Shown in pieces: positions 17,501 through 41,600 of a stretch of 64,000 nucleotides of DNA (positions are counted from its first letter, which is position 1; each line of letters starts with the position of its first letter). The notes beneath the pieces are model-generated. The model was not told the origin of the DNA. It was given only the letters and a program-made list of their open reading frames with translations, and did no database searches. Both the position numbers and the translations under genes were made by a program. Source of the stretch: Mugil cephalus (lineage: Eukaryota; Chordata; Actinopteri; Mugiliformes; Mugilidae); NCBI RefSeq assembly GCF_022458985.1, contig NC_061791.1, positions 150,001 through 214,000 of the forward strand, given 5' to 3'.

Positions 17501-20500
17501 GTTGTGTTGTGTTGTGTTGTGTTGTGTTGTGTTCTATTCTATTCTGTTCTGTTCTGTTCTGTTCTGTTCTGTTCTATTCTATTCTATTCTATTCTATTCT
17601 ATTCTATTCTATTCTATTCTATTCTGTTCTGTTCTGTTCTGTTCTGTTCTGTTCTGTTCTCTTGTAAACACTAAACCGAGTCCCGCTGACGGTCTCTGGT
17701 CTCTTCCAGATCGTGGCGGCGTTCCAGGCGTCTTTGAACGACGAGGGTTTGATCGTGGCGTCTCTGGAGCTCTCAGACCTGCAGGAGAACGTGACGGCGT
17801 ACGCGGTTCAGATCTCTGGAGAACCCCGACTGGTTCTGGTTCCGTTCATGAACAGCAGCGAGTCTCTGGCGTTCAACGCCTCGTTCCACGGCCTCTGCTA
17901 CAGCGTCGCTCTGCTGGTCCGACTGGGACCCAGCTGGTCCAGACCCACCAAGACCATCCCCGTCCTCACCAGTAAACACTCATCTCTAATATTTATTACA
18001 CATTTTAAAGAGTTTTTAATGGATTATCAGAGTCATTTAAAGGTGTTTTAAGAGTTTATTTAATTATACGATAGAATCATTTTAATAGGACAACCTGTAA
18101 GATACAAGCGGTTGGTCCTTGCTCTGACTGGTAGTTGCTCTGATTGTTGCTCTGACTGGTCATTGCTCTATTTGCTCTGACTGGTCGTTGCTCTGACTGG
18201 TTGTTGCTCTGGTTGTTGCTCTGGTTGTTGCTCTGACTTGTTGCTCTGGTCGTTGCTCTGGTTGTTGCTCTGGTTGTTGCTCTGGTTGTTGCTCTGACTG
18301 GTTGTTTTCCTCCCCAGAGCCTCTTCCCGTTGCCAGCGCTCAGATCTCGGACTATAAGGAGGCGCCAGAGACCGGCGTGGTGTTTGAGCTGGAGCCTCCG
18401 GCCAGAACCGTCTTCAGTCGAGTCAACATCAGCTTCACTGAAGGTTCAGAGCGACGCTCGATGCTCTACAAAGGTATAAAGAACCAGCGGGAACATGATG
18501 TCCATGCACTGATAAAATGATCCACTAGGAGGCACCGAACTATCAGCTCAGCCACATCCAGACTCTAACTTCTTTATGTGCAGATTTCTACCGAGGGAAG
18601 ACGGTGTTTAAGCACTGGTTACCGGGCGTCTGCTACCGCGACATCACCTTCCAGCTGATCTCTGAGGTCACCGTGTCACAGACGCCGCTGGTGTCACGCA
18701 GTGACATCACACACTCGCCTCTGCACCACCGCACAGGTAGCGTAGCTTAGCATAAGGCCTCGCATAGAGACTAGCTTAGCATAGAGACTGGGAGCAGGGG
18801 GTTAGCTTCCTGCTCCTCCCCCTCCTCCCCCTCCCAGATTAACTGACTGTTTCTCCTCCCCCCTCAGTGCCCTACCCCCCCCTCAACATCTCACATAAGA
18901 TCATCCACCTGAGCCAGAGGCCGCCTCCCCCCCCCCCCCCTCCTCCAGGTGAGCTTCCTGCTGGGGGGGGTCGGCGCTCCTCCCGCCAGGCCCGTGACGT
19001 CCCGCTGATGGAGGAGGAGCAGGAGGAGGAGGCGGTGCAGTCTGAGGAGGAGACCCCGTCTGAGGAGGAGGCGCCCACTCTGACTCCCTCCGACTCCTCC
19101 TCCTATAACCTGACGGGAGGCGTCGATGGCGGCAGGTCGGAGGGGGCGGAGCCTCTTAGCTCCTGGCCCGAGGCCACTCCTCCTCCGGCGGACGGGGAGG
19201 AGGAGGAGTTCGTCAACGCCGTGGTGTCGGAGTACGAGGACTCCAACGAGCCGGGGTCGGCCATGGCGCTCCCCCCCGCCGAGCCCTCGGTCCTCCCCAC
19301 CACGCTGCCCCCCGTCCTCCTGGAGCTCCGCTGGCTGCCCCCCCGCCCCCCCACCAGCTACGACGGCTTCACCCTCTACGTCTACAGAGACGGTAAGACG
19401 CTCCCGCACGCGCTCCGTGGCTCAGACCTCGGCTTTAACTGTGACTATAGACACTGACACCTCCTGCAAGGCATCATGGGAACTGTAGTCAGACCGTAAT
19501 TATCTGAATGTTTGTGACTGAAGGGAGATGACGGAGATGCTGCACCTCCTCCTCTAATGGTCTAACCTCCTCCTCCTCCTCCAGGGAACTCCACAGAGTC
19601 GGCCACTGTGGATGAGAACACTCATGAGTTCTTCACGGAGTTGACGGAGCCGGGGACGTATCGGGTCCAGATCAGGACGCTGAGTTCATCCGGAGGCTGC
19701 GACGCCCGAGAGAGCAGCGGGGACACGGGCTTCAGCTTCTACCTCAGTAGGTCCTCAGCGGGACAACCAGGGGGACGTCCTCAGCAGGACGACCAGGGGG
19801 ACGTCCTCAGCAGGACAACCAGGGGGACGTCCTCAACAGGACAACCAGGGGGACGTCCTCATTTAATTTATTTTAAGTGGGTTTTAGTGGATGAATCAGG
19901 CCTGAATATAATAAATTATTGAATATTTCTGGATATTTCTGTCTGGATGAAAAATGCATTTGATTCCATTTCAAATCAAAACAGTAGAAAATATTAAACG
20001 TATGAACCTGAAGTTAAAGTGGTTTTTAAATCAGAACCTGCTCTTTAATCCGTCCACACAACGTTTTGACCAGAAATGGATTAATGGTGATGATCGTCCG
20101 TGTCCAGGTCCCGGTGGAGACGTCCTGGAGGAGCTCCGGGACCGTCCTCAGTCCGTCTCCGTCCGGCTCCTGGACTCCAGCACGGCCGCCGTCTCCTGGG
20201 CTCCGTCCTCCCAGAACCACAACGGAAGTCTGGTGTCGGTGGTTTCTACAACCTGCCTGAAGCCCAGTCTGAGCCAGAGGATGGAGAACACCTACTGCAG
20301 CGAGGTGACCCCCCAGCTCCAGGTCCTGGTTCTCAGTCCTCCAGGTCCTGGTTTACATGAAAACTGCTTTGTTTCTAAGGCACCGGGGGGGGGGGGGGGG
20401 CACTCTGAGGAACTAGTCCAGGTAGTTTCTGATGGTTTTATCCTCAGAGTTTCTGTTTAAACTCTTTAAACTTAGACCTGAAGAAGCTCCTCAGATGAAA

Positions 20501-23500
20501 CGTCTTCTCTAGACTCTACGGGTCCACATGTGTTTTTTAAACTACGTTCAGATTAAATCTCTGATTTCATCAGATTCATTTTTATTTGTTTGACAGGAAA
20601 ACTTGACGAGCGCCATCATCAGTAACCTGACGCCTGGAGCTCAGTACCAGGTGGTCGTCTATCACACCAACGGACCCCTGATCAGCCCCCCCTCCGAGCC
20701 CGTCATCATCGACATCGGTGACCATCACTTCCTGATCTACCGCCTTCAATCTGGTTTAATCTGGTTTAATCTGGTTTAATGTGATCAGATCTTCATTAAT
20801 CTGGTTTAATCTGGTTTAATCTGATCAGATCATGATTAATCTGGTTTAATCTGATCATGCTTAATCTGGTTTAATCTGGTGGTTTAATCTGGCTCTGGTT
20901 TAATCTGGTTTAATCTGATCAGATCATTAATAATCTGGTTTAATCTGGCTCTGGTTTAATCTGGCTCTGGTTTAATCCGGTTTAATCTGGTTTGATCTGG
21001 TTTGATCTGATCAGATCATGATTAATCTGGTTTAATCATGATTAATCTGGTTTAATCTGGTTTAATCTGACCCTGTCCCGTCTGTCAGAACCCACCGGTG
21101 TCCGTGAGCTGGCCGTCTACCCTCTGAGTCCGACCGCCGTCATCCTGAGCTGGCAGCGTCCGTACCACGTGGCGTTCAGGAAGTACGTCCTGCAGACCTT
21201 CTTCTTCAACCCGGTCACGCTGGCATCTGAGTGGACGACCTACTACGAGATCGCCGCCACGGCCTCGGTCATCGCCTCCGTGGTAACGCCGCGTCTCAGA
21301 GAACAGCAGCATCCTGTAGACATGCTGAGCCTCACCTTGTCCCTGTTGTTGTCCCTGTTGTCCCTGTGTCTCTGGTAGAGAGTCACCGACCTGCTGCCCG
21401 CCTGGTATTATAACTTCCGCGTTTCCATGGTGACGTGGGGCGACCCTCCGCTCGGCTGCTGCGACAGCTCCACCGTCAGCTTCGTCACAGGTACGACTCC
21501 GAAACCTGCTCCACGCTGAGGTTAATCTGCACACGTCACTACACAGATAAACACAACCGGACCAGTGAGTCCAGGTGCTCCAGCCCCTCCCACGTCCAGG
21601 TGTATGAATCCAGCCCCTCCCACGTCCAGGTGTATGAATCCAGCCCCTCCCACGTCCAGGTGTATGAATCCAGCCCCTAGGCTGCAGACTGCTTCTACAA
21701 ACATTAGGGGGGGTCATAATGAGGTCTCCAGACTTGATGTTTAGCTTCAGATTAGCTCCAGAGCAGAGCTTCATGAATGGGTTTCCATGGCCCAGCAGCT
21801 GCATCCCAGCCCCACGTCACCACGGTCCTGCAGAGCGTGGGATGCAGAGCGTGGGATGCGGAGCGTGGGATGCAGAGCGTGGGATGCAGAGCGTGGGATG
21901 TGGGGCTGGGATGCAGAGCGTGGGATGTGGGGCTGGGATGCAGAGCGTGGGATGCAGAGCGTGGTGATGTGGGGCTGGGATGCAGAGCGTGGTGATGCAG
22001 AGCGTGGGATGTGGGGCTGGGATGCAGAGCGTGGGATGCAGAGCGTGGGATGCAGAGCGTGGGATGTGGGGCTGGGATGCAGAGCGTGGTGATGCAGAGC
22101 GTGGGATGCAGAGCGTGGGATGTGGGGCTGGGATGCAGAGCGTGGGATGCAGAGCGTGGTGATGTGGGGCTGGGATGCAGAGCGTGGGATGCAGAGCGTG
22201 GTGATGTGGGGCTGGGATGCAGAGCGTGGGATGTGGGGCTGGGATGCAGAGCGTGGGATGCAGAGCGTGGGATGCAGAGCGTTGGGATGCAGCACCACTG
22301 GACTCTAGAGCAGTAGAGACGTTCTCTGAAGGGGGACCAGTCTGGGTCTGGAGGTTCCCAGGAGAACGCTGGACAGTAACATGCTCCCAGTTTAGTGGGA
22401 CCAGTTTGAGGACGTCCCCCTTCCTGTTCCACCAGGACTGAGAACCAGAGACAAAGTCAGGTCCATAAAGACCTGGATGAGGAGGAACTGGCCCCCATAG
22501 AACGAACCCTCCTCAGTTCATATGTGTGAATGTTTCCCTCGTCCTCCTGCAGCTCCAGAGGCTCCTCACGTCTCCTCGGTGGACTACTCCCACGGCGTCC
22601 TCTATGTCCGCTGGACGTACGGAGAGCTCTTCATCGACCTGTCCCACTCCAGGATGCTGCACTGGCAGGTGGTGGCCGTGGGGAGGAAGGGCCCAGAGAG
22701 GAGCTACTCGGTCGATGTGAGTTCTTCTTCCTTACAAACTGTTTCCTGATTCAGGTCAGAGATTAGGATCCAGATCCAGATTTAGTTCTGAATGAATCTC
22801 TGGCAGAGGGAGTTGGAGCCAGTTTATCTGGAGTTTCTCTGTTGGGGCCAGTCAGATTGTTTGTGGGCGGGGCTTAATGTGTTGATGGACAGGTAGTTAG
22901 AGACATCTCTGATTTAGTTTGAACATCTGTGTTTGGTTGGAGGAGGAGGAATTTATTCTTTTTTCTTGACTTTACACTAACTCTCTGATCGGCCTCTAGT
23001 GGACATCCCAGGCTCTGGTTGCCTAGGTAACCACCAAATATGTCTAGTGTATGGGCAGAGCTGGCTCTTCTTCTTCTTCTTCTTCTTCTTCTTCTTCTTC
23101 TTGGTGAATCTGGGGGTAGGAACCAAAATGGCGGCCTGTGTTTCCTTCTGTGTTTGAGTCACGCTCCTATTGGTCCAGACCAGTTCAGCTTGGCCCCGCC
23201 CACCTCACGTGTCCTCATGCTGTGTTCTGGTTGCTAAGGAGCTACCAGTTGGTTGCCAGGTGGTTTCCACGGTGACGGCCCAGGTCCGTCTCAGGTGGTT
23301 GCTGGTGACGTGTTCATGTGTTTATTACAGAGCTCAGTGTCTCCAGGTTGATGTCAGGAATGAACCAGTCATGATGTGATGAACAGAGTCTATTAATAAC
23401 TTTAATCTGGGTTAATGTTGCAGAGCTGAGTCCGTGTGTGCAGGTGATTAATGAGACTGATCAGGACGTCTGGATTTACGCTCAGTTATTTTTACTTTAG

Positions 23501-24239
23501 GGCAGATTAATTCGTATTTTTGGAAAAGAGCAGCAGTGTTTCCTGTCGTCCTCATCAGAAGATGAACTCACGTTAAAACCTGCCTCCTTCTCACAATCCA
23601 TTAACCTGGAGTCTAGTGGTCCAGAGTCTAGTGGGTCCAGAATCTAGTGGGTCCAGAATCTAGTGGTCCAGAATCTAGTGGTCCAGAATCTAGTGGTCCA
23701 GAGTCTAGTAGTCCCAGAGTCCAGAGTCTAGTGGTCCAGAGTCTAGTGGGTCCAGAATCTAGTGGGTCCAGAATCTAGTGGTCCAGAGTCTAGTGTCTAC
23801 TAGAGTCTACTAACACAGCTAACACAGCTACAGCTAACACAGCTAACACAGCTAACACAGCTAACACAGCTAGCACAGCTACAGCTAACACAGGCGTTGC
23901 GTAGTACACAACCATATTATTCCACGTCAAAGTTCAACACTTTTACTATTGACTGTGAAACTTAACTTCACCGGTACTTTAGTGCATGTGCGTGTTTTTA
24001 TTGTGTTTTATTTTGTTATGTTTTACACCGTGTGGTTGTGTCAGGTGACCCGTAACGTGATGCGAGCCAGCCTCCCTCTGCCTCCAGGAGACATCTACAA
24101 CCTGACGGTGACGGCGTTTACCGAGCGCAGCAGGAACTCGTCCACGCCGAGCATCATCAAGCTGGGTCAGCACACACTCGCTCATACACACACACACTAA
24201 CACACACACTAATATATACACACACTAATATATACACAC

Positions 24240-24285
<46 letters not shown>

Positions 24286-27200
24286 ATATATACACACACA
24301 CACACACACAAATATATACACACTAACACACACACTAACACACACACACACTAATATATACACACTAACACACACACACACACTAATATATACACACTAA
24401 CACACACACACACTAATATATACACACTAACACACACACACACTAATATATACACACTAACACACACACACTAACACACACACACACACTAATATATATA
24501 ATATATATATATAAACTGAAACGTTGACAGTTTTTGGAACTGGTGTGGAAATAAAAAGTGGCCTCAGGTTGTTGGACTCTGTTGGTTCTGGTCCATGAGA
24601 TGGTTCTGGACCATGAGGTGGTTCTGGACCATGAGATGGTTCTGGTCCATGAGATGGTTCTGGACCATCACTGGAGTCCAGCTGTGTGTGAACTGATGAG
24701 GAAAAACGAGCTAAAATATCTGCAACATAAGAAACAGAGAACAGAACTGAGAGTCTGGCTTCTGGAAAACGACTTTTCATCAGTCAGAAGTGAAACCAGG
24801 AGATGGTTTAATGTTCACATCTCAGGATAAATAGAGAAATACACGTCGATCAGAACATCCTGTAGAACAGCTGCACCTGCACAACACACAACCTGACAAA
24901 CAGCGACTCACAACACAACCATGTTAACACAGCTACAGCTAATACAACTAACACAGCTACAGCTAATACAACTAACACAGCTACAGCTAATACAACTAAC
25001 ACAGCTACAGCTAATACAACTAACACAGCTACAGCTAATACAACTAACACAGCTACAGCTAATACAACTAACACAGCTACAACTAACACAGCTACAGCTA
25101 ACACAACTACCGCTAACACAGCTACAACTAACACAGCTACATCTAACACAACTACAGCTAACACAACTAACACAACTACAGCTAACACAGCTACAGCTAA
25201 CACAGCTAACACAGCTACAGGTAACTGTAGTTCCCAGTCTGACCTGATGGGGTCAGCGTAGCCTGTTTGGGGCCAGGACGCGTCTGCAGATGAAGATGAA
25301 GATGAGTTTCCATCAATCTTCCAAACAAACAGGATGAGGAACTAAATAATGATAATTATAGTTTGATGAACCAGTTACATCATCAGTTGAGACTCGTAGT
25401 TTATAGAATCAGGAAGTGATGCAGCGATGATGGAGGATAAAGATATAATGAGCTCAGCTTTAGTCCTGTCACGGGTTCCTACTAGAACCTTTCAGGTCAT
25501 TTAAAATGTCCGTTCAGATAAAATGGTCCATTCTCCAACTCAGTGACGAATGAATGGATGAATGGACGAATGGATGAGTGAGTGAATAGATGCTAACATC
25601 TGTTCATCTGCAGATTATTCTCTAGTTTATGTTCCTTCCTGCAGCAGGTTATTAACTCACTGACGATGAACCCAGGACAGATCACAAACCTTCAGAGGAG
25701 CCACAACAGAACCAGAACCAGAACCAGAACCTTTAGCTGTAGATCTCCTCCTCCTCCTCCTCCTCCTGCTGCTGTGAGTCAGTGACTTAATGAAACACAG
25801 TGCGATCATTTATATTCGTACTGTTCCTTTAAATCCAGCAGCTGTTTCTGACTGAAGCTGTTTTGGGTTTTTTTAACGGAGGAAATGAAACTAACGAGAG
25901 AAAAGTCGTTTTGAATGTGAAGCGTCTCCGTGGCGACATCGTCTCCAAACCTCAGACTGTGAGGTTCCTCCTGGAGTCTCTGACTGTGAATAACTGACCG
26001 CCTTCCTCCATCTTTGTTTGGGCCTCGACCCTCGTTCTTGGGCCAGAAAGTGAATATGAAACTAGTGATTCTCCACTTCCTCTTCTCGCCCCGCGGAGCC
26101 TCTCAGTCCGCGGAGGAAGCGCCAGCGTCGTCGTCTCCTCCGGCTCAGACCGGGTTTACCTGCCGGCTTCACCTCCTCTAAACTTCATCCGCTGCTTCCT
26201 GCAGAGCCGGCTCCGCCCAGATCGCTGTTCGCCGTCAACGCCACCGACTCGTCCGTCACTCTGCTGTGGAGCGAGGAGGGAGTGGTCGACTACTACCAGG
26301 TCCTGTGTAGACCCAGCAGAGCCAGCAAGGAGCGCAAGGTAAGGCTTAGTCTCAGGGTTAGTCTCAGGTTTAGTCTCAGGTTTAGTCTCGGGTTAGTCTC
26401 AGATTTAGTCTCGGGTTTAGCCTCAGGGTTAGTTTCAGAGTTAGTCTCAGAGTTCGTCTCAGGTTTAGTCTCAAGTTTAGTCTCAGATTTGGTCTCAGAG
26501 TTAGTCTCAGGTTTAGTCTCAGATTTAGTCTCGGGTTTAGTCTCAGGGTTAGTCTCAGGTTTAGTCTCAGATTTAGTCTCGGGTTTAGACTTGGGTTTAG
26601 TCTCAGGTTTAGTCTCAGAGTTAGTCTCAGAGTTAGTCTCAGGGTTAGTCTCAGGTTTAGTCTCAGGTTTAATATCGGGTTTAGACTTGGATTTAGTCTC
26701 AGGTTTAGTCTCAGGTTTAGTCCACTGTGTCTGTCTTCAGGACAGGCTCTGACGTCTCTAACTTGTCCTCCTCAGGCCCGTGAGCCTCAGACGTCCACGT
26801 CTCACGTCCTCACAGTTTCCGGTTTGTTGCCATCGTCCAGCTACAACTGCACCGTCACCAGCTTCAGCTACAGCACCCCCAGCCGGCCGGCCCTCATCAC
26901 CGTCAGCACCGTCGGTAGGTGGCGCCGTCCTGAGACCTGTCAGTCCTCCACCTGTCCCGGGGAGGGGGCGTGTCCTGGGGAGGGGGCGTGTCCTCTGTTA
27001 GTTTGATCACGTATTAAATGTAAACACGTGTCTGCAGCTAAAGAGATGAACCCCAGCGTCGCCGCCATCTCGGCTCTGGCCGTCCTCAGCGTCCTCCTCA
27101 TCAGCCTCCTCATCCTCTTCCTCCTCGTCCTCCGCAAGAAACACCTGCAGATGACCAGGTAACGCACGCCTCCACCTCCACCTGTAGCTAGAGATCCCTT

Positions 27201-28232
27201 AGACTGACCACATGGTGGCGCTGCTGCTTATATTGAATGTTAAACATCGGATCAGATTTTCCCGGTCCTCTGCGTTAGCTTTAGCGCTAACGTTAGTAGC
27301 GTCTGATTCACGTCCAAACCTCAGCTTCGTTAATAACATTTTGTCTTTGCGATTCATCTCTAGTGATAAAGTTCGTTCTCTCGGTTTCGTTAGTCTGAGG
27401 TTCTGGGTGCGAACCCCGGCCACTTTATTAGGAACGCTAGTGAACCTGCAGCCGGATCAGATCCATCCAGTTTAACTAGTGCATCTAATGATACAGATGT
27501 GTTTAAAATGCTGAGTTAGTATCTTGTTTTAATTCTTCTTGCATTTAAGTTTTACTTTGTGTTTCTAACAGGCTTCTATACATGTGAGATAAGTAAAGTA
27601 TTAACACCCAGTGTGGTTCTCTTGCGTAACTGATGTTTATCTTTAGGTTTCGAGGCTTGTGACTAATGAGGCTATTATGAGGTTTATGGGAACTCTGATA
27701 AAAGAATAAAAACGTGTCTAACTCGTGACTTATTTTTAGATAAACTTTTGCCGCAGAGTGAATAAACGTGATCAGATGCAAACATTTGGAGTTTTACTAA
27801 TCTCTTATAAATAAACAGTTAGTTCTGACTGTTCACGCAGCCTCGTTAAACCTCATTAAATTTAAATAAAGCTTAAGAGTTTCCAGTTATTCTTGTGCAC
27901 GCATTGACTTCCTCTATTTCCTGACCAGTCATCAAATATTTCTGACTTCCTCAAACATCTCCGCTCAGTTCTCACCACATCTTTTTCTGTTTGTGTTCTG
28001 TTTTTGTTCAGAGAGTGTGGAGCCGAGACCTTCGTCAACTTCGCTTCTTTTGAGAGAGACGGGAAACTTCCCTACAACTGGTACGACCTCATTCTGATCC
28101 TCATCCTCAGGTCACAACACTGAGCTGCATCCGTCGGGTTTCAGGGTTTCAGGGTTTCAGGGTTTCAGGGAGCAGATTAGATCTGAACATGTAGCTCAGA
28201 CTCTTAACTCATAACAGTGAAGATGAAGGTGG

Positions 28233-28269
<37 letters not shown>

Positions 28270-31200
28270 GACGAGCTCAGCAGAATTGGGGAGTTTGTTG
28301 ATGAAAGCTGAGGATTTCCCTTAATCTCAGATTAAAGGGACAAAACGCTGATTCTCACTCAGTTTTTTCCAAAACACAGAAATCACGTTTTGGCCGTCGA
28401 TTAATTCTCAACAGTTATATTTGATTTTAACGGGAAGTCGTGAGTAGAGGACACGCGTTGATTAATTTGTGATTAATATAACGGCTGAAAGACGGTCAGT
28501 TAAGGCAGAACCTTGGCTTCCATCTGCTGTTGTATTTGACTTCATCACTAAATGCACATTTCCATCAGTTTCCTTCTCAGTGTGGTGGCGCTGGTGGTGG
28601 ATTGTGTTTCTGCTTTGACTGTGCATGATGTCCTCTGGTCAGAGACGTCTTTACACATTCATAAAATCACTCACAGGAAGGAAAACTATGGAAGAAGCTG
28701 AAAGTTTTTACTCACATATTTGAAATATATTTTAGGTTTAGCATAAATTCCATTTTTTATATCCTATAGCAGAAAAAGACCAATGTAAACTAGATCTTTT
28801 TTTTGGCCTCCATTTAATTATCAAAATCAGACTCCACAGTTTTTAACCATTGTTCTATTTACTTCTGTAATAAAAATAAAGCCTTATATTTGTCTTTACA
28901 CGTTCATAACCTTATTTAGAATATTGTAATACTATCAGTGTTCCTCAGTTATTTAAGACTTAATTAAAAATAAATAAAATTCTTCTGCATAAAAAGGCCA
29001 AAACAAACAGGCCATTAACTGCTGTGGAGTACCTCAAGGCATTATACCGGATCCACTTCTTTTTATGTAATTAAGTTTATTTTTTATTTTTAAATAGATG
29101 ACTTCCAGACAGTAAGTTTTCAGTATCATGTTCAGAGCAGAGATTGTTTGGCTGCCCTCTGGTGTCAGAAATAATTTTCTGATCTTAAGTGTTTTCAAAC
29201 GTCACTAATTGTAAATATTAAAATCGTTTTTGACCTAAATACCTTTAAAACTTTTATCAAATTTTATAAAAAGACCAAAATTATTTCCAATGTTAATGTT
29301 TTCACAGCTTCATTCTGAATAAAATAACTTTAAATAAGATAAAATAAAGAGATTTACATCTTTATGACCAATGTGTAAAAATGAAACCTGACATTTCATT
29401 TTATCTTTAACTGCCTGATTTATCAATTAAATCTAAACTTAAATGTAAATGTCTGGAGGCAGGAAACAGACAAACTGAACCTATCTGCATCCTTCTCAGG
29501 TCAAACCTGAGAAACTGAAACGTCGTGAAGGTGGTTTGTTTTAAACTGTGTAGTGTTGCATCGTGGGTCGTCTGGAAGGACGCAGCGATGTCCCACATTC
29601 AGGATGGAGGTTGTTTTAGTTGAGACAGAGCATTCATTGACGTCCAGCAGCGGACAGACGCCTGTTGTCCTCCAGAGAGACAACGGGACACTTTCTGAGC
29701 GGCTGCATGATGCATTAACTCTGTGTTCAGCACTAATGTGAAGCTCTGTGCCTCTTTACTAATGGAGCGCCATGTTCTGTCCCCAACCTACCGCCCCCTG
29801 GTGTCTGTTCTCTTTATTTTCTTCTTGTTTGTGTTTTTATTTTGATTTTTATTTGAACCCCCTTCAGGCGAAGAAGCCTCTTTGCCTTCCTTACCCTACT
29901 GCCATCCTGCCTTTGGACTGACTATCTTTTGGCTTTTTATATTAATCCTTGGTAAGTAAGCACTTCAGGGGCATGTCCACGCAGCGCCACAGCCCACAGT
30001 ATTGACCAGAGACATTGTTTTATTGTCATGTCGGGTGTCCTAATATAATTCTGTCGGCAAATCTCCTGAAAAGACCAAAACCAACTTTTAGTTTTACTGA
30101 TGTGGTGTTCCTCAGGGCTCCATCCTGGCTCCTCTTCCTTTCTCCATCTACCTCTTAGACTTAAGACACGTAGATAATATATTATTGTATTTGTCCCCCT
30201 CTGGTTGCCACCAAGTGAAATAAAAACAATCTAATCTAACTTTTTTTTGAATTAACAAAGCTTTTATTGATGTGGTGTTCCTCAAGGCTCCATCCTGGCT
30301 CCTCTTGTTTTCTCCTGTAGACTTTATGAAGATGATATGTGTTTATATTTATTCACCATAAATTGGATTATTTCATATCTTGATTAATATAAGACTTTAT
30401 ATTTTCTAATTTCTAACAAAAAACTATCAAAGCTTTTACAGATGCGGTGTTCCTCAAGGCTCCATCACGGCTCCTCTTCTTTTCTCTGTCAGATATTTCA
30501 TAATTTAAATTTAATTTAAGTTTACTTACAACCAGAGCATTTGTTTTAAAATATTTCTGTCAAATGATCATTTTGGGCAGCAGTTGGTTTGGATCTCGGG
30601 TTCCAGCCAGAGTATCTCTCTGAGGTCAAAGCAAAACCCGTTCCGTTAAATTTAGGCAGTGACTGGTTGAAACCAACTCTTTATTGACCCAGATATTAGA
30701 TTTTCCTGTGTCGGCCACATCTTTGGCTCCATGGCACCGTCACTGCAGCAGAAACACAAGTATTGTACTTGTTATTATTATTATTATTATTATTGGTAGT
30801 AGTAGTGGGTGAAGTTGTAGTTTTTGATGAATGACCATGATGAACTGTGGCATTAACTCCAGAAAGACAAAAAAAGTGAAACTCTTAAATCAAAAACATT
30901 TATGTTCATATTACTTCCCCCAAAATAAATACATGTGTAATTTATGACGAATATTAAATTAAACGTGGTGTTCCACAGGGATCCATTCAGGGCTCTTATT
31001 CATAAAATCTTCTCATCTTTGTGTTTGTGAATTATTTATGGAGCTCGGAGGAATCAAACATATCAAACCACAGTGGTTGTTACCAGGAAGCCGTCAGTGT
31101 TGGTCGGATCTTTGTGTGATGTTTGTTCACAAGAAGAAAACCGAGACTCACCAGACTTTAAAGCTTTTATTCTGAAATTAAAGTGAATTTCCTGGGTCTT

Positions 31201-34200
31201 TTCTGACATGTTGAACTTTGTCTTGCAATGCTGTGCCTGTGGTGGAACCAAAGTCACTCTGAGTGTTTCTCTACTAACATGTTGAATGTACTTTAGCATG
31301 ATGCTAACTGATGCGACCTGATGCTAACTGTGGCTTCGCTCCACGTCTGCATGCGTCTGTGGTTTCTCTGTAGACGTAAATGTGCATGTGGTTGGTTGGA
31401 GATGATTTAGTGTCGTAGAACTCCAGATTAAAGCCGAGTTAGAAGTCTGGATGTAGGCTGCCCGGCCACTTCATTAGGTACGCCAGAGAAACCAGTCCTG
31501 CTCTAAGTCTCCATGAAAGTTCAGCTTCAAAGAACTCAGAGATGTTGAGTGAATGAATGAATGAATGAATGAATGAATGAATGGGGAATGTGTTTTCGTT
31601 GTGGAGGTTTGTAGCTTTAGATTGATCCAGTTTAACAGAAACATAAACTCCATCCAGTTATTAACATCATTTACATTAGAATGACTTGACTGGTGTACCT
31701 AATGATTTGGCCAGGGAGGGTCGAGGCTCGAGCATGAAGCATGACTCATCTGGAGCTGGAGAGGATGAAGCTCTGACGATGTTTGGGTTCATACTGACTC
31801 ATTAAGGAACTAAACGTTCATTCAGTCACAGTTGATTAGAATCTAAACTAGAGAAGAACTTTAGTTTCAGCTTCAGTAGAAACAGATCGAACCTTTAACG
31901 TTTGGCTTTAAAATTGAATCTGATTGTCATCGTTAAAGATGCAAACTATAGACTTCACTTAAGAGAAAATCAGAATTTTAGTTGTTGATTGTGTGAATAA
32001 AGTGTTGATAAGAGTCTAAAAATGAAATAAAAACTAAAATCACTTCCATTAAAACGAAGGCAGCTGCTTCTGAAACGTTTATTCATCTGTAAACAGGACA
32101 AATTTAGTTGGAAATAAATGAATGAATAAAAGATCATTTGGCTCATTCTAAAACTAACTTCTCATAAATGAACCCAGAGCAGTAGAAACCCACATCGGTA
32201 GAACTGAACCGATCAGCTGATCTGAACCTGAGGAACTGACATGTTTGTGTTTTATAGGAGCAAGACGGCTCTAAAGAAACGGAAGCTAACAAGGTAACGA
32301 GCCTGGAGGGTAGCATGTAGCATGTAGCGTTCGCGTCTGGACCGGAACCAGGAACTCGTTTGTCGACTCGTAACCATGAACAGATGTTTGTCAGTTTGTT
32401 TGTCGACTCATAACCATGAACAGATGTTTATCGACTCGTTTGTCGACTCGTTTGTCGACTTGTTTGTCGACTCATAACCATTAACAGATGTTTGTCGACT
32501 CATAACCATGAACAGATGTTTGTCGACTCGTAGCCTGATGGAAAATCTCTCACTGTTAACGTTCTTTGTCAATGACGTCAGTTATTTCAGCGAAGGAATG
32601 AGCTAGTTATAGGTGAATGGATGAATGTTGAATGAATGAATGTGAATGAATGAATGTGAATGAATGTTGAATGAATGAATGGATGAATGAATGTGAATGA
32701 ATGAATGTGAATGAATGAATGTGAATGAATGTTGAATGAATGAATGGATGAATGAATGTGAATGAATGAATGTGAATGAATGAATGAATGACGGCTCTGT
32801 GTCTCTTTCAGCCCGGTGCAGCTCGATGACTTTGAAGATTACTTCAAGGAGATGAGCAAAGACTCGGCGTACAAGTTCTCTCTGCAGTTCGAGGTTTGAC
32901 TCCAGAACCAGAACTAGAACCAGAACTAGAACCAGTTCAGAAGCTGCTTGAGAATCTGTCTGATTTAAGTTTCCTTTATTGATCAGAGACGTGAACCAGG
33001 AGCAACTTTAAAGAGACATATTATATTATTATATTATATTATATTATATTATATTATATTATATTATATTATATTATATTATATTATATTGTATTACATT
33101 GAATTATCACAATCACAATTTTTGACTTTTGACTCTATTTTATGATTTTTTTAAATATGTAAAGTGTCTTTAGTACCATGATTATTATTGTTATTAAAAT
33201 ATATTAGCTGATCTCTATTGAAGTTCTTAGATGATACTTCTAGTGCCTGTGATGGAGGCTGCATCTTTTTCTTTATCATCAGATACTCTTGTCTTAATAT
33301 TCATTCATTCATTCAGTCATTCATTCACTAAATGAACTCTGATGTTGTCCAGGAGCTGAAGAGTGTTGGTTTGGATCTGAGCCACGACGCGGCTGATCTA
33401 CCCATCAACCGCCCCAAGAACCGCTACACCAACATCCTGCCCTGTGAGTCCTGAGCTAATGCTAAGGTAATGCTAAGCTAAGGCTAAGCTAATGGCCTCT
33501 CTGCTCTGTCCTCAGACGACTTCAGCCGAGTGAAACTGATCTCGATGCACAACGACGAAGGTTCAGACTACATCAACGCCAACTACATCCCTGTGAGTCT
33601 ACAACCGGCCACACGATGGCGCCACTTGCACATTTAGATATTAACACTATTATTATTTAGATAAGAGATAAAGGTTTTATATATATAGGTAGAGACTGAG
33701 GGAAATAAAATAAAATACTAACTTAAAGGATGTGGCTCGTATACGCGTGAATTTACAATATTTTAAATAAAGTTCATTTATTGTTGTGAGATTATTTTGG
33801 TTTGTCCTAAAAAGTCAGAGATGATCTGAAAGAAGACGAGGACGTTCTAGCTTCAGTTAGAGGACGGATATTTTAACATTTACCCAAATGAAATTAAAAA
33901 TAAAAACGAATTCAGCTTCATCTCTACCTTTAATGCAAATAAATCACGTAAACTAAATCAGAAATGTTTCACCCTCAGCTGGTGTTAATGTAATATGATA
34001 TAATCGACTCGTTCTACGGCTACTGTTAAGGGACAAACAACAGAAGTGAATGAAAAGTAGAAATAAATAACATTAATAAATTAAAATGAGTGTTTTTGAA
34101 GAGGTCCCTTAATGATGATTATTACACCGTGTAAAAATGGAGGATTATGGAATTTGAGTTTCAAAATTTGCTAAAAATAAATAAATAAATAAAGATCTTT

Positions 34201-35449
34201 GAAATCAAAAAGCAGAACGAAACAGAAGATATTTAAAAAGTAAAATGATCCAGACCCAGAGAGGAGTGAGGTCATGTGACTGGAACGAGGTCATGTGACT
34301 GGACCGAGGTCATGTGACTGGTTGCTGTTGTTGTGTCCAGGGCTACAGACACAGTAAAGAGTACATCGCCACCCAGGGGCCGTTACCAGAGACTCGTAAC
34401 GACTTCTGGAGGATGGTCCTCCAGCAGAAGTCTCCCATCATCGTGATGCTCACCCAGTGTCAGGAGAGACGGAGGGTGAGTTAATTAATGACCTCGTTAG
34501 CAGGAAACGCTAATAAACTGATGTTTACATTTATGATCTGAGATGTAGAATAAATAATGATAATTAATAATTAGACTTTTGTTTGTGTTCGCTGTCGTTG
34601 GTCTTTAAATGATAAATAAATAAGATATAAAATATGTCCCCGGTGTGTCCCCCCCGCTGTCCCCAGGTGAAGTGTGACCACTACTGGCCCTTCACGGAGG
34701 AGCCCGTCCTCTACGGCGAGATCAGCGTGGAGATGCTGTCGGAGGCGGAGTCTCCAGAGTGGACCATCAGGAAGTTCAGACTGGGCTACGTGAGTCTGTT
34801 CAGGACCGACTGGATCTGAGAGGACCCCTCCACATCTGGATGTCCTCTTAACCTGTCCCCCTGTCCCCCCCAGGCCGACGAGACCCAGGACGTCCTGCAC
34901 CTGAACTACACGTCCTGGCCGGACCACGGCGTCCCCACGGTCAACGCCATCGAGAGCATCCTGCAGTTTGTCCACATTGTCCGGCAGCAGGCCAACCGGA
35001 CCAAGGACCCCCTCATCGTCCACTGCAGGTAGGACCGGGTCTGGACCGGGTCTGGACCGGAGGACAGGACGTCAGGACGTCCTCTCTGTGCCTGTAGACT
35101 CACCCCCCGTCCCTGTTATGTGTTTCAGTGCTGGAGTGGGGAGGACCGGGACCTTCATCGCTCTGGACCGACTGATGCAGCACATCAGAGAACACGAGTT
35201 CACCGACATCCTGGGCCTGGTCTCAGAGATGAGGGCCCACCGGCTCTCCATGGTCCAGACCGAGGTCAGTACCAGCAGGGTCCGCTCAGACCAGGGTCAG
35301 CTCAGAACACGTCAGACCATAACGTCCTCCTCCTCTTCCTTCAGGAGCAGTTTGTCTTCATCCACCAGTGCGTCCTGTTGATGTGGCAGAAGAAGAAGCA
35401 ACAGTCCGTCACCTCAGACGTCATCTACGAGAACGCCAGCAAGACATAA
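11586..35449 (+). CDS. ptpro: Receptor-type tyrosine phosphatase O (GLEPP1)
   Basis: Twenty-six exons: 11586-11657, 17710-17971, 18318-18473, 18584-18736, 18868-19392, 19585-19746, 20108-20304, 20597-20717, 21089-21282, 21379-21490, 22553-22716, 24045-24165, 26205-26338, 26776-26914, 27038-27158, 28012-28080, 29868-29951, 32258-32293, 32812-32893, 33353-33443, 33516-33592, 34341-34475, 34667-34789, 34874-35028, 35129-35264, 35345-35449. The phase is kept throughout and totals 1241 aa (human about 1216). PTPRO is a podocyte and neuronal R3-type receptor phosphatase. A Leu/Pro-rich signal peptide leads into a fibronectin-III-type ectodomain, one membrane helix at about 845-868 ([18 protein letters not shown]), then one catalytic domain (about 945-1225). 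It has [15 protein letters not shown], the WPD loop (1125-1127) and the P-loop [11 protein letters not shown] with nucleophile Cys1161 and Arg1167. The C-terminus [10 protein letters not shown] keeps the conserved tyrosine. Exon 5 carries a fish-type Pro/Glu-rich insert. The phosphatase looks fully active. Confidence 0.96.
11731..11764. repeat. (GGA)n microsatellite
   Basis: Eleven GGA units within the first 110 bases of ptpro intron 1. Confidence 0.9.
12034..12218. mobile_element. Tc1/mariner-derived MITE with terminal inverted repeats
   Basis: The left end CGATCAGCCACAACATTATG (about 12037-12056) is mirrored by the right end CATAAAGTTATGGCTGATTG (about 12196-12215), giving roughly 28-bp imperfect inverted termini. 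The motif CATAATGTTATGGCTGATCG is the known end of a widespread teleost Tc1-like transposon. About 185 bp with no transposase, so a non-autonomous or deleted copy. Confidence 0.7.
12286..12432. repeat. CT-rich (CTCC/CACCTC) low-complexity tract
   Basis: Polypyrimidine sequence with loose repeats of CTCCTCC and CACCTCCC; the open frames here are artefacts. Confidence 0.8.
13287..13391. repeat. (TTAGCTCTG/TTAGCTCTA)n minisatellite
   Basis: About eleven 9-bp units built on the word GTTAGC. Confidence 0.9.
13483..13683. repeat. GGAGGTCTCAGTGA minisatellite
   Basis: About ten units of 14-22 bp made of GGAGGTCTCAGTGA with variable extra GAGGA. Confidence 0.9.
13814..13874. repeat. GGAGGAGAA/GGA low-complexity tract
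   Basis: Purine-rich run of GGA and GAAGGA units in ptpro intron 1. Confidence 0.85.
14900..14955. repeat. (CCTCCCTCCGCCT)n tract
   Basis: Six or so units of CCTCCCTCC(G/A)C in ptpro intron 1. Confidence 0.85.
15396..15790. repeat. GT-rich minisatellite (TTGTGTGTTCTGG / TTGTGCGTTCCTG)
   Basis: About 25-30 degenerate units near 13 bp alternate between two unit types. It is open in several frames on both strands only because of its periodicity. Confidence 0.9.
16281..16508 (-). mobile_element. Degenerate LINE reverse-transcriptase fragment
   Basis: The minus strand reads [16 protein letters not shown], the RT motif (GVPQGS-x-LGPLLF) of non-LTR retrotransposons of the L2/CR1/Rex class. The surrounding frame is open for 75 codons, but only the 15 or so residues around the motif are recognisable. 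An old dead insertion. Confidence 0.7.
17143..17215 (+). repeat. TTAGCTTAGC-type dispersed teleost repeat
   Basis: Two adjacent copies of GTTAGCTTAGCTTAGCATGAAG, one followed by CCTGGGAGCAGGGGAGA. A related copy is at 18736-18810, and in reverse orientation the same family seeds the array at 53135-53577. Confidence 0.6.
17357..17660. repeat. (TTCTG/TTCTA)n pentanucleotide array
   Basis: About 60 pentamers alternating in blocks of TTCTG and TTCTA, with a short GTTGT block in the middle. It ends about 50 bases before the acceptor of ptpro exon 2. Confidence 0.95.
18110..18306. repeat. GTTGCTCTGACTG minisatellite
   Basis: About fourteen 12-14-bp units fill most of the intron before ptpro exon 3 and end about 10 bases short of its acceptor. 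Confidence 0.9.
18521..18566 (+). repeat. Dispersed repeat module, GATCCACTAGGAGGC type (copy 1)
   Basis: GATCCACTAGGAGGCACCG and AGCTCAGCCACATCCAG match, in order and spacing, a block at 51072-51117. The family is unidentified. Confidence 0.5.
19745..19862 (+). repeat. GGACAACCAGGGGGACGTCCTCA minisatellite at the ptpro exon-6 donor
   Basis: Four to five units of about 24 bp begin inside the donor region of exon 6 (CTCA|GTAGGTCCTCAG) and fill the first 115 bases of the intron. Confidence 0.9.
20741..21070. repeat. (AATCTGGTTT)n decanucleotide array
   Basis: About thirty degenerate 10-bp units with interspersed TGATCAGATCA. It occupies nearly the whole intron between ptpro exons 8 and 9. Confidence 0.95.
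21578..21678. repeat. 30-bp minisatellite CCAGCCCCTCCCACGTCC...
   Basis: Three complete copies and a partial fourth of a 30-bp unit, almost identical to each other, hence recent. Confidence 0.95.
21827..22287. repeat. GATGCAGAGCGTGG / GATGTGGGGCTGG minisatellite
   Basis: About 33 units of 13-14 bp of two kinds in a higher-order mixture; unit copies are near identical. It yields long spurious open frames on both strands. Confidence 0.95.
22987..23165 (+). repeat. Dispersed repeat module (copy 2) with (TTC)n
   Basis: GGCCTCTAGTGGACATCCC, AGGCTCTGGTTGCCTAGG and GTCTAGTGTATGGGCAG follow the same order as the block at 4483-4600. A (TTC)12 run sits at the equivalent place of the CTTCCTC tract in the other copy. 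Confidence 0.5.
23605..23895. repeat. (GGTCCAGAATCTAGT)n then (AACACAGCT)n
   Basis: A 15-17-bp array of about eleven units is followed directly by an array of 9-bp and 6-bp GCTAACACA units. Confidence 0.9.
24172..24512. repeat. (AC)n with (ACTAATATATAC) interruptions
   Basis: A compound microsatellite starting six bases after the exon-12 donor; it ends in (AT)n. Confidence 0.95.
24918..25220. repeat. ACAGCTACAGCTAATACAACTA minisatellite
   Basis: About eight 22-bp units, then a decayed half built of ACAGCTA and ACAACTA. Same word family as other GCTAAC arrays here. Confidence 0.95.
26339..26724 (+). repeat. (GTTTAGTCTCAG)n minisatellite at the ptpro exon-13 donor
   Basis: About 32 units of 12 bp begin immediately after the donor (CGCAAG|GTAAGG). 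Because the unit is a multiple of three and stop-free, the exon frame stays open into the intron until a TGA at 26750-26752. Confidence 0.95.
27159..28011 (+). other. ptpro intron after the transmembrane exon
   Basis: Mostly unique sequence. At 27395-27440 a B-box-like GGGTGCGAACCCCGG stands next to a solo Tc1-type end GGCCACTTTATTAGGAACG; no full element could be delimited. Confidence 0.5.
29026..29067 (+). mobile_element. LINE reverse-transcriptase shard 1
   Basis: Fourteen codons read [14 protein letters not shown], a decayed version of the RT motif GVPQGS-x-LGPLLF. Flanks are not recognisable. Confidence 0.55.
29151..29166 (-). promoter_or_regulatory. CTCF-like motif
   Basis: The minus strand reads GACACCAGAGGGCAGC, close to the CTCF consensus. 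It lies 0.7 kb upstream of the ptpro cassette exon. Confidence 0.4.
29791..29806 (-). promoter_or_regulatory. CTCF-like motif 62 bp before the ptpro cassette exon
   Basis: The minus strand reads GACACCAGGGGGCGG, matching the CTCF core. CTCF bound next to an alternative exon is known to affect inclusion in another receptor phosphatase gene (CD45); relevance here is inference. Confidence 0.4.
29868..29951 (+). CDS. ptpro: ptpro cassette exon (28-residue juxtamembrane insert)
   Basis: An 84-nt exon bounded by CCCCCTTCAG and GTAAGT. It enters and leaves in the same phase (TG|G), so skipping it keeps the frame. It encodes residues 901-928: [14 protein letters not shown] followed by [14 protein letters not shown]. 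From memory this differs from the mammalian alternatively spliced insert at one position (Leu for Ile), far better conserved than neighbouring residues. It is strongly hydrophobic and sits between the membrane helix and the phosphatase domain. Mammalian PTPRO is known in forms with and without this segment. Confidence 0.93.
30080..30495 (+). mobile_element. Three tandem ~171-bp units each bearing a LINE RT motif
   Basis: Frames starting at 30104, 30274 and 30446 read [33 protein letters not shown] and [15 protein letters not shown]. Each is preceded by a similar CTTTTA(T/C)(T/A)GATG(T/C)GGTGTTCCTCA stretch. Spacing is 170 and 172 bp, so this looks like a small tandem triplication of an RT-derived fragment. 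Confidence 0.6.
30967..31005 (+). mobile_element. LINE reverse-transcriptase shard
   Basis: [12 protein letters not shown] then a stop: another remnant of the same RT motif. Confidence 0.5.
31460..31718. mobile_element. Tc1/mariner-derived MITE with terminal inverted repeats
   Basis: Left end CCCGGCCACTTCATTAGGTA and right end TACCTAATGATTTGGCCAGG are imperfect inverted repeats. CCGGCCACTTTATTAGGTAC is the known end of another teleost Tc1-like family. The 259-bp interior has no transposase and includes a (TGAA)n expansion. Confidence 0.75.
32341..32530. repeat. TTTGTCGACTCATAACCATGAACAGATG repeat
   Basis: Degenerate units of 12-40 bp containing TTGTCGACTC, starting about 45 bases after the donor of the 36-nt ptpro exon 18. 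Confidence 0.85.
32618..32792. repeat. (TGAATGAA/TGTGAATGAA)n
   Basis: A tetranucleotide-based array ending about 20 bases before the acceptor of ptpro exon 19. Confidence 0.95.
33018..33092. repeat. (ATATT)n pentanucleotide repeat
   Basis: About 14 units in the intron between ptpro exons 19 and 20. Confidence 0.95.
33593..34340 (+). other. ptpro intron between exons 21 and 22
   Basis: Unique AT-rich sequence. Only a GGTCATGTGACTGGA triplet repeat (about 34271-34321) close to the acceptor stands out. Confidence 0.6.
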
Positions 35450-36630
35450 TCTCTCCAGATGTGAGTCTGTTTTCACCAGTGAACCAGAACCAGAAGCAGA
35501 ACCGGTCTCCAGGTGTCCCAGTTAAACCCCCTCGTTGTCTTACAGGCGTGGACTCGTCCTCCAGAGCTTCAGCTTCATCATCAGCATCAGAACCAACAGC
35601 AGAACATCTGGACGTCTTTACTTTGGCTCGGCGTCTGAGCATGGGACGGAGCTCCGCCTCCACCACCCTCTGGACCGTGACCCCGCCCCCCTCTGGACCC
35701 TCTGGACCCTCTGGACCCTCTGGACCGGACGTCTTGGTTCAGATCTGTTCGGTGGAACTGAGTCAGCAGCTTTTTGTTCTTTCTCAGGAGTCGCTGAAGA
35801 ACCAGCAAGCACACGACTCCGCCTCCGAGGCCTCAGGCTCCGCCCTAAGAGACCTCAGACTCCGCCTCCCAGGCCTCAGACTGTCTCAGAGGACGTGTCA
35901 GGACGGAGGACGTGTCCCTCTGGTCCTTTTTGTTTTGCTGGATCTTTACCGACTGGAGCTCGGGGTCGTGTTGGGTCGAGCTGCTCTGGACGTCGGTTTG
36001 AGAGACGGACTCTGGAACCAGACCAGGTTTGACGGACCACGTGTGAGGATCAGCTGGTCGGCCCCGGTCAGATCTGTAGGAACCAGAGGAACCGGTACAG
36101 GTTTACACCAGAACCCAAACTCTTTACTTTCATCGGTTTTAAATCCAGCAGCTGAAACACTTCAAACTTTTTTATTAATTCTAGTTTTTTCATTTTTTGT
36201 TAATTGTAAACGTTGAGACATTAACACTTCTCATATTAATTAAAAACACACTGCCCCCCCCCCCCCCCGGGTCGACCGCCGTCAGAATAAGAGCTGGAAC
36301 TAAAACATTTAAATCAGTTATTAAAGCACAAATCTTCACGTTTTGGTTCCACGATCAGATTTAAACACGTCGGAGCTCAAACTTTAAAACGTTGTCGTCC
36401 TAAAAGAGAGACAGGAAGCTTCAGACTCTTATTTTGACGGCGTCAGCTGTTACTGTAAATACTACGATGCTAAACTCTTCTTTCGGTTTTTAAACTCGTC
36501 GTAAATGTGAATCGAACTTTTCTTCTTCTTCTTCGTGTCGTAGTGTCACTTCCTGATCAGAGTGTTTGTGTGTTTCCTTCAAAATAAAATGTCCAGTTAC
36601 ACCTGTTGTTGTTTCCTTCAAAATAAAATG
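35450..36630 (+). other. ptpro: ptpro 3' UTR
   Basis: Begins at the TAA (35447-35449). Two AATAAA signals stand at 36583-36588 and 36622-36627. It contains TCTGGACCC repeats (35695-35730) and a C14 run (about 36255-36268). Long chance open frames cross it but show no protein similarity. Confidence 0.65.
36583..36627 (+). terminator. ptpro: Two poly(A) signals, ptpro
   Basis: AATAAA at 36583-36588 and 36622-36627, each within a repeated TTTCCTTCAAAATAAAATG phrase, about 1.15 kb after the stop. Confidence 0.6.
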
Positions 36631-37434: not shown

Positions 37435-37440
37435 TTTATT
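37435..37440 (-). terminator. eps8: Poly(A) signal, eps8
   Basis: The minus strand reads AATAAA, about 1.2 kb beyond the annotated stop. It is the only clear signal I found downstream of both candidate terminal exons, so both isoforms may share it. Confidence 0.5.
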
Positions 37441-38439: not shown

Positions 38440-38511
38440 TCATGGAGGTGAGCTGAGGAGTTCCTGCCGACGTCTCATGATCTCCACAAACTCAGCACGA
38501 TCAGCCTCCGC
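38440..38511 (-). CDS. eps8: Duplicated alternative last coding exon of eps8
   Basis: On the minus strand the acceptor CCTTCTTCTCAG precedes 24 codons reading [19 protein letters not shown] then SSPP and a TGA. The core [13 protein letters not shown] matches [13 protein letters not shown] of the canonical last exon 10 of 13. The exon starts in phase 0, as the canonical one does, so it can replace it directly after AALE of exon 40202-40334. Codons for the shared Arg triplet differ at synonymous positions (AGA CGT CGG against AGG AGG CGG), which suggests an old duplication kept for its protein. It lacks the [10 protein letters not shown] tail. Expression is unproven; it could be a relic. Confidence 0.65.
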   Translation of the reverse strand, partial: AEADRAEFVEIMRRRQELLSSPP

Positions 38512-38662
38512 CTGAGAAGAAGGAGCAGGATCCAGATTGAAAGGAGAGAAAGCAACAAGGAGGAGGAGGAAGAGGAGGAGGAGGAGGTGGTGCAGGAGGA
38601 GGAGGTGGAGGAGGAGGAGGAGGTGGTGCAGGAGGAGGAGGAGGAGGAGGAGGAGGAGGAGC
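38512..38662. repeat. (GGA)n tract between the two eps8 terminal exons
   Basis: About 120 bases of almost pure GGA (TCC on the transcript strand) with GGTGCA interruptions; it supplies an extreme polypyrimidine tract before the duplicated exon. Confidence 0.95.
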
Positions 38663-41600
38663 TCAGTGGGTGCTGCCTTCATCAAAAGACTCCACCCCTG
38701 AATCACAGGTGCTGACTGCCAGTTTCTCCTGCCGCCTCCTCATGATCTCCTGGAGCTCAGAGCCTGCACTCTTCTGGAGGAGGAGGAGGAGGAGGAGGAG
38801 GAGGGAGGAGGAGGAGGAGCAGCAAAAAGAAGAGGAGGGAGGGAAACACAAACAGGAAGTTACATCACAGACCAACACATTCCAGACCAGGTCTCTGGAG
38901 ACTCTGGAGGAGACTGGTTCTAAACCTGGACCAGGTCCTCCTCCCGAGAGCCTCCTCATTTTGATTCTCTACCGAGCGTCTCCTTAAAACTCAAAAGGGG
39001 AGGAGGAGGAGGAGGAGGCAGAGAGCATGCTGGGAGGAAAGGGGGAGGAGCCTGATTCATTGAGAAATAAAGTGAAGTTGACACTCGACTGATTATAAGA
39101 AAAGAACTGGAGGCTTCAACCGGACCAGACCAGACCAGACCAGACCAGACTCTGTCTCTATTAATAGTGTCTCCATTATCAGGTCTAAGGCAGGACCAGG
39201 TCTACATGAGTGACCTTCATGTCGTCCGTGGTCCAGATCAGTTTAAAATAGTCCTTCAGTTACTGGTTCCAGCTGGATCTGGTTTATTATCTATTCTGTG
39301 AAGGGACCTGAGACCTGGGACCAGGGACCTGGGACCGAAGACCAGGGGCCTGAGACCTGAGACCTGAGACCAGGGACCTGGGACCTGAGACCTGGACTGA
39401 CAGGTTCACTATGAGACCGGTTTAACGAGGGGACGAGGCTGGAGACGAACAGCTGATCTACCTGAAGAAGCTGCTACAGGTGGGAATGTGAGGAGACCTC
39501 GTTCTGAAGGCCGGTCTACTGGTCTACGTGAGACGGGATCATTACTAATGTCCCTGTTAGTCTCTGTGTGGACGCTCCGGCCGACAGAACGAAGCCGTGG
39601 ACATGAGGACATGAGGACGTGAGGACACATGAAGACGATACCTGAATGAATGAGTCAGAAGATCAGAGGAGGGTCAGAAGAAAACCTGCAGGTGGAAATA
39701 GAACCAGACCAGACCTGACCAGAGTCGGAGGACAGAGAGGACGGAGACAGCTTCCAGACACCAAGAGGGACCAGAGGACGCCTCCGGACCAGAGGACGCC
39801 TCCAATCAGAGGACGCCTCCAATCAGAGGACGTCTCCAGACCAGAGGACGCCTCCAATTAGAGGACGCCTCCGGACCAGAGGACGCCTCCAGACCAGAGG
39901 ACGCCTCCAATCAGAGGACGCCTCCGGACCAGAGGACGCCTCCGGACCAGAGGACGCCTCCAGTCAGAGGATGTCTCTAGCAGCAGCTGTCTGGAAGCTC
40001 GGCTCCAACATCATCATCAGATTCATCTGTAAACCATCTGTTTGTGAAGGTCCCTACTGAGCATGCTCAGCAGCTCACCTCTCTACAAAATAAGAGCTTT
40101 ATTCACTGAGTCCTAGTCTGGGTGTGTCCACTACACTCTGTCCGTCCTAGTCTGGGTGTGTCCACTACACTCTGTCCGTCCTGGTCTGGGTGTCCACTCA
40201 CCTCCAGCGCTGCTTTCTGAACCGTCACCTGACTGAAGACTCGAGCTCCGTCGTCAGGACAAACCGTCTTCAGCTCCTCCTTGTTGAGGGAGAACAGCTG
40301 AGCTCCGGTGAGGACGCCCAGGCTGGTGATGGTCCTACAGGGACACACGGAGACGGAGGTTAATGAGGACGAGGCCTGAGGAGGACGAGGCCTGAGGAGG
40401 AGCAGGACTCACACGGGGCTGAAGCCCTTGGCCTCCAGCCAGGCTTTGACCTGGTCCGGAGACGAGTCGTAGGTGATGTTGATGGACGAGAGGCTGCTGC
40501 TACGAGACGGAGGCTGGAACTTCTTGTGAGCGCTGCGACCCAGAGTCAGACGATGCAGCAGCTCGTCCTGGACCTCGTCCATGTTGGACTTCCTCCCTGC
40601 AGACACCACACAAACCTTAGTCCTGGACCACATTCAGACCAGACTGACCTCAACACAACAACAATCCATGATGAGATGAATGGAACTGGTTCAATGAGGG
40701 TAAAACAGCAGCATTGAGACAGTCAAGAGCTCCGGTCTCATCTGGACCAGTTTCTGGACCGGTTTCTGGACTCACTGATGGCGTCTGGTCTCTGGGGGCC
40801 GTGCTCCCTCATGGAGACGCCGGCGGCCTCGGTGGGCGTGGCCTCCCGGCTGAACACGGCGGGCTTGGACGGCTCCTCGGCTGGAGGAGGCTGGGGCGGC
40901 GTGGGGAGCCTGGTGGTGGGCAGGGGGGCCTTGGGTGGAGGCCTGGGTGGGGGCCTGGGTGGGCGCCGGGGGCATCGGAGTCACCGTGGGTCTAGTGGGC
41001 AGGAAGTCCGGCCGCGTGGTCTGTTTCTACGGATGAAACAACGCTTTAATTTAAAGGTTTTAACGTCATGACGGAGCGACAGAGACTGTTTCCATGGGAA
41101 CAACATCCAGGATAATGTGGGAGGAGCCTAATGTGAGCTAAACCTAGCCGTATGCTAATTTAAAGACATTAACATACAGTAGGAGAGAAAACATTTCATG
41201 CTAAAACTAGCATGCTAACCTTCTAATGTCCTGTCCTGGTAGAATATTCAGTTTGTGCTCTTTTTATTTTTATTTTGTCTCATTCCTGTACGATTAGATT
41301 ATTTTTTTTATGTCTGAAATAAACTAAACTAATGTCACCATAATGCAGATAAACACTAGCATTATTTAGGCGCTACCAGGTACCACGTTTAGCATAGCAT
41401 AGCATAGCCTACAGCCTGGAGGCCTGATCCCACAACAAACAGCAGGTGTTTGACGTTTACCTCGTTCAACTCTCCCAGTAACTGCTGCAGACGAAACGAA
41501 ACAAAGATGGAGGAGATGAGACATGGTTCATTGACCAGAGTTAAACTAAAACCTAAAAACACGATTAAAGGAACAGTCCCACATTACAGTTAGCCTAGCT

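Follow-up and report, generated by a model that had tools for sequence, protein, structure and literature searches.

A candidate second C-terminal tail encoded within the terminal exon of a fish eps8 gene

Results

We found that the 3' end of eps8 in Mugil cephalus encodes two homologous tails in the same splice register, and the second of these, tail B, is probably a functional, alternatively spliced and coding C-terminus of EPS8. The DNA analysed was a stretch of 64,000 nucleotides (C22:150001-214000, hereafter the window, in whose numbering all positions are given), with eps8 on the minus strand. The canonical exon A and the downstream exon B each begin directly after an AG acceptor, are entered in phase 0 and run to a TGA stop of their own, and both encode EIMRRRQE close to the splice site (Table 1). 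An earlier sequence-only reading of this DNA had described a second exon with its own acceptor, the same entry phase and a related peptide, and that description proved exact to the base. The two acceptors are 262 nt apart and the frame of exon B is open for 99 codons.

The SAM-like C-terminal lobe of EPS8 is present, with matches to PF18016 (SAM_3) at 5.3e-25 and to the EPS8 chain 2e8m at 7.3e-30. The last eps8 intron also carries a minisatellite of 18/53-bp units, GGACCAGAGGACGCCTCC, which lies between the shared donor and exon A (window 39768-39971).

Table 1. Features at the 3' end of eps8, in window coordinates
Feature	Position	Strand	Remark
eps8 penultimate coding exon, end of SAM-like lobe	40202..40334	minus	donor GAG/GTGAGT after 40202, phase 0
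TCC-rich polypyrimidine tract of acceptor A	38776..38846	minus	AG-free zone 117 nt
Exon A coding part, canonical tail, 36 residues + TGA	38663..38773	minus	acceptor, phase and stop read from sequence
10-residue C-terminal element of A with DSGVES, lost in tail B	38675..38704	minus	fits DpSGX1-3pS; putative function
Second TCC-rich tract	38539..38661	minus	AG-free zone 148 nt before acceptor B
Exon B coding part, 23 residues + TGA	38440..38511	minus	acceptor TTCTTCTCAG/GCGGAG
AATAAA, likely poly(A) signal common to both isoforms	37435..37440	minus	hexamer scan; presumed use

Exons A and B resemble each other beyond chance

Local alignment of the two tails gave a score of 46, with 10 identical residues among the 15 aligned, out of 23 in tail B as a whole. 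With exon A left aside, the next best of the window's 3466 reading-frame pieces scored 38, and shuffling the region 300 times gave at most 41. Local alignment by itself would thus seem a moderate test of homology, and this score, modestly above background, is what speaks for a likeness that arose by chance. Two other results make chance scarcely credible. In a register test, which scores the match to A's core at the same distance from an acceptor AG, B scored 44 and the next site 18 among the 4000 open of 9367 AG sites in the window, the register having been set with B already known. At the DNA level the cores of A and B are alike in 21 of 24 bases, and their alignment scored 33, where none of 500 shuffles went above 23. 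The resemblance is therefore beyond chance. The copies are homologous in splice register, as tandem duplicated exons are, and the register test, the phase and the separate acceptor back the view that B is a genuine copy of the last exon's 5' part.

A profile of three paralogue tails alone gave B a score of 9.0, lower than that of at least six background sites (11.0-15.3). Since this profile fails to single out B, the A-B homology rests on A. A possible third copy near 35660 on the minus strand (score 38 with A, gapped AELRPMLRRR-AK) did not rank among the top sites in the register test and was rejected.

The eps8 paralogues have a single tail exon each

We searched the genome (634.8 Mb, 24 contigs) with the SAM exons and exon A and obtained at least 12 matches, among them eps8 and at least five other convincing SAM-type loci, on C16, C20, C10, C1 and C4. 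A SAM-type match on C7 was left out (E 1.99, 29% identity, two stops). The loci on C16, C20 and C10 have one tail exon each, in the same register as the eps8 tail. We take these provisionally to be eps8l1- and eps8l2-like genes; of the two names only EPS8L2 came up in a search, its chain 1wwu being matched by the eps8 query. When the register test was applied to five 10-kb paralogue loci (6249 AG sites), the eps8l2-like tail scored 43 and the eps8l1-like tails 26 and 19, over a background of 18. No second tail exon rose above background in the 10-kb loci on C16, C20 and C10 at the scores used. The paralogue tail exons, which carry an E-L-x-[EA]-[VA]-M segment, are like that of eps8 in place and register, but each of these paralogues has only one.

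The lead before the E of this segment is six residues long in B and in all three paralogue tails, and five in A. This places the acceptor of B at the family position. Hydrophobic moments of the shared segment did not exceed those of shuffles in five of five tails, and the idea of an amphipathic helix was dropped.

At C1 and C4 no tail exon could be made out with the scores applied, and the reading frame closes a little way past the SAM segment. In these two loci (L024 and L025) the eps8l3-like SAM frames pass the donor position of the other paralogues and then stop shortly after (KSTAAVSKSSNP, KSTMAVSDQRAS). Two further frames were rejected as background level, the window maximum being 38 and the shuffle maximum 41, and neither was among the best register sites. 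One, AFVDFVEVLKQRF/DFVEVLKQRF after CAG (L023, reverse, ~6047), lies ~4 kb beyond the eps8l1-like tail of C20 and scored 30 with B; the other, SEQIIRRRLGQSELSV/SEQIIRRRLGQ (L022, plus, ~8681), lies ~6.7 kb beyond the eps8l2-like tail of C10 and scored 37 with A. A genome query with the junction and tail B returned one match, exon B itself; exon A was not among the matches, so weaker copies would be missed as well. Scans of viral and prokaryote contigs confirmed no relative.

Codon differences suggest constraint on both copies

The sequence-only reading had pointed to synonymous codon differences in the shared RRR, and we find that two of these three codons differ between A and B. Over the whole of EIMRRRQE three of seven degenerate codons differ and no amino acid is changed. 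In a pairwise codon model the data were compared with an omega of 1 (2dlnL 10.7 for 15 codons, 9.2 for 20 codons) and with an omega of 0.5, approximately the value expected if one copy had drifted (6.9 and 6.0). In this model kappa was fixed at 2, the best omega lay at the lower bound and divergence was near saturation, and the tests cover 15-20 codons in an alignment chosen after the fact. Higher values from the 8-residue core (2dlnL 16.4 and 12.9) were set aside since that stretch had been picked for its identity. These data suggest an old duplication in which both copies have been under constraint. The proposal of long protein-level selection is thereby borne out as far as the codon model gives signs of constraint, and tempered by the shortness of a 15-20 codon stretch.

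One terminal exon with two acceptors

The two exons had been read as mutually exclusive terminal exons, which would give each its own 3' end. A scan for 11 poly(A) hexamers, which covered 38700 to 36001 of the minus strand, found none of them from the stop of A to exon B. The first hexamers lie downstream of B, namely TATAAA at 38105, ATTAAA at 38063, GATAAA at 37702 and AATAAA at 37440. The last of these is the likely shared signal, with ATTAAA at 38063 as a possible alternative. As no poly(A) signal separates A from B, exon B sits in the 3'UTR of A, and the A and B forms would thus come from alternative 3' splice sites within a single terminal exon. We therefore rejected mutually exclusive terminal exons. 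At the sequence level there are two acceptors, one phase and one downstream 3' end. Splicing of A and B into one transcript was also ruled out, since there is no suitable donor between the acceptors: no donor-like GT there has more than six of nine matches, and the one with six is out of phase.

At acceptor A 22 of 22 positions are pyrimidines and at acceptor B 18 of 22, so that A is stronger as well as first. It follows that B might see little use or none. A search for YTNAY branch sites within 150 nt of each acceptor found none.

The sequence-only reading was right that a TCC tract precedes each acceptor. Its suggestion that these tracts are targets of PTB/PCBP-type control fared less well. 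The minus strand of the window has six long pyrimidine tracts, so that TCC-type tracts are common there, and the second tract is polypyrimidine tract if B is used but 3'UTR if A is used. For both reasons the tracts are weak evidence for PTB/PCBP control, although they may take part in the choice of acceptor. The AG-free zones are to be read with the fact that TCC repeats are AG-free by nature. Human exons with AG-free zones of at least 100 nt show more cassette-type alternative splicing (68 of 235, 47 expected; Gooding and co-workers, PMC1431707), and duplicated exons with unequal long pyrimidine tracts are a known theme (PMC5224494).

A spliced tail B is the favoured explanation

We propose that eps8 ends in one long terminal exon whose two acceptors, 262 nt apart, compete. 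By default 40202 would be joined to 38773; the protein would then have the ancestral tail A, and the B region would belong to the 3'UTR. If acceptor A is passed over, 40202 would be joined to 38511 and the protein would end in tail B, in which EIMRRRQE still follows the SAM-like lobe but the 10-residue end of A is lost. Exon B would have arisen by an old tandem duplication within eps8 that took in the acceptor of exon A and the exon's 5' part, and would have been kept for its protein sequence. Its likely effect is to shed a regulatory tail while the actin-binding lobe is unchanged, and B would be the rarer form.

Exon B could instead be a relic, a duplicated exon end that is never or no longer spliced and has kept its frame by luck. 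That acceptor A is both stronger and upstream fits such a history, as do the weak power of a codon test on so short a region and the extent to which B has diverged from A outside the core. However, the 8-residue core has taken synonymous changes while its amino acids have stayed the same, the likelihood goes against an omega of 0.5, the acceptor, frame and stop of B are intact, and its six-residue lead matches the paralogues. A relic is thus unlikely, though it is the alternative we take most seriously. The position of B within the 3'UTR of A would also suit a non-coding RNA element of the A transcript, and on that reading the sequence was kept as RNA. This is very improbable given that B resembles the coding core of A, in frame and in splice register, with differences that are synonymous.

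The tails lie almost wholly beyond the actin-binding lobe

The same splicing might act on actin directly, and the sequence-only reading had held that an exon switch could alter capping or bundling. Hertzog and co-workers (PMC2879411) assign capping mainly to H1-H2, and bundling to the lobe formed by H2-H5, in which H5 spans mouse residues 765-788. In our comparison the solved EPS8 chain 2e8m is matched as far as the exon junction, which indicates that the alternative tails leave the lobe intact, and the A/B tail lies almost wholly beyond the solved lobe, although with the EPS8L2 chain 1wwu the match extends over the first 8 residues of tail A. The LNKDE bundling stretch and the H1-H2 capping helices are upstream (PMC2879411), and EIMRRRQE is retained by both tails. 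On the other side, the same source has the tail within the 648-821 actin-binding construct, H5 ends approximately at the junction and binds G-actin weakly when isolated, and parts outside H1-H2 are said to add to full capping. The maps and the end of the lobe match weaken the case for a capping or bundling switch, and we consider a direct effect on actin rather improbable. The favoured reading remains that tail B sheds a regulatory tail.

Tail A ends in a conserved element that may be a degron

The 10-residue element of A is also found in the EPS8 C-terminal peptide of Xenopus given in PMC1274305, and is absent from B and from three of three paralogue tails. A is in this respect an EPS8-type tail and B is not. 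Within it, DSGVES fits the beta-TrCP consensus, given as DpSGX1-3pS in PMC9606124, and of the five tails only tail A has such a match. The element may be a degron. The ligase described for EPS8 in PMC8441365 is SCF-Fbxw5, for which a degron could not be defined and prior modification was not needed. In the open-licence literature we found no paper joining DSGVES to EPS8 turnover and no stated role for the tail end of A, the one paper found with it, PMC1274305, using it as an antibody peptide; the EPS8 mentions seen in PMC10767929 and PMC11845296 say nothing on the tail.

One could go further and suppose that the choice of acceptor governs how long the protein lives, in that A carries a conserved phosphodegron and B, having shed it, provides a stable EPS8 in cells with long-lived actin bundles such as microvilli and stereocilia. 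We consider this quite improbable. If it were true, an antiserum to the C-terminal peptide, as was raised in Xenopus (PMC1274305), would be blind to B.

Discussion

EPS8 contributes to length control in microvilli and stereocilia. A second natural tail, if real, would separate the role of the actin-binding lobe from that of the conserved end of tail A. If B is made, C-terminal antisera and annotation that starts from the first acceptor overlook an isoform. The sequence-only reading knew of no described human equivalent, and this agrees with our search, in which the matches listed from the open-licence literature included no vertebrate EPS8 tail-splice isoform.

A close parallel is C. elegans, where one gene yields EPS-8A and EPS-8B with two C-termini by alternative splicing (PMC2553197), as proposed here for the fish gene. 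The likeness is one of splicing outcome: EPS-8B is without the actin-binding domain (PMC2553197), whereas in the fish the last 36 residues would be swapped for 23 and the lobe would stay. EPS8 isoforms of 97 and 68 kDa have been reported in mammalian cells, but unlike A and B both are said to have the C-terminal actin-binding domain (PMC4265741). In U2AF1 Ab/3, TPM1, FYN and others, as in eps8, homologous exons neighbour each other with long pyrimidine tracts (PMC5224494). Competition between acceptors is shown or proposed for those genes and presumed for eps8. Their exons are internal (PMC5224494), whereas both eps8 copies end in stops inside one terminal exon.

The window also holds frames that look like parts of other genes. 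On the plus strand, from ~17600 to 36000, there are exon frames like those of a receptor-type tyrosine phosphatase, with fibronectin repeats, lying tail to tail with eps8; in human, PTPRO is the neighbour of EPS8, and these phosphatase-like frames may be its counterpart. More gene-like frames are found at 4944-5582 and 7548-8825 on the plus strand and at 60145-62660 on the minus strand. From their translations these three regions look like SOCS2, CRADD and DUSP16.
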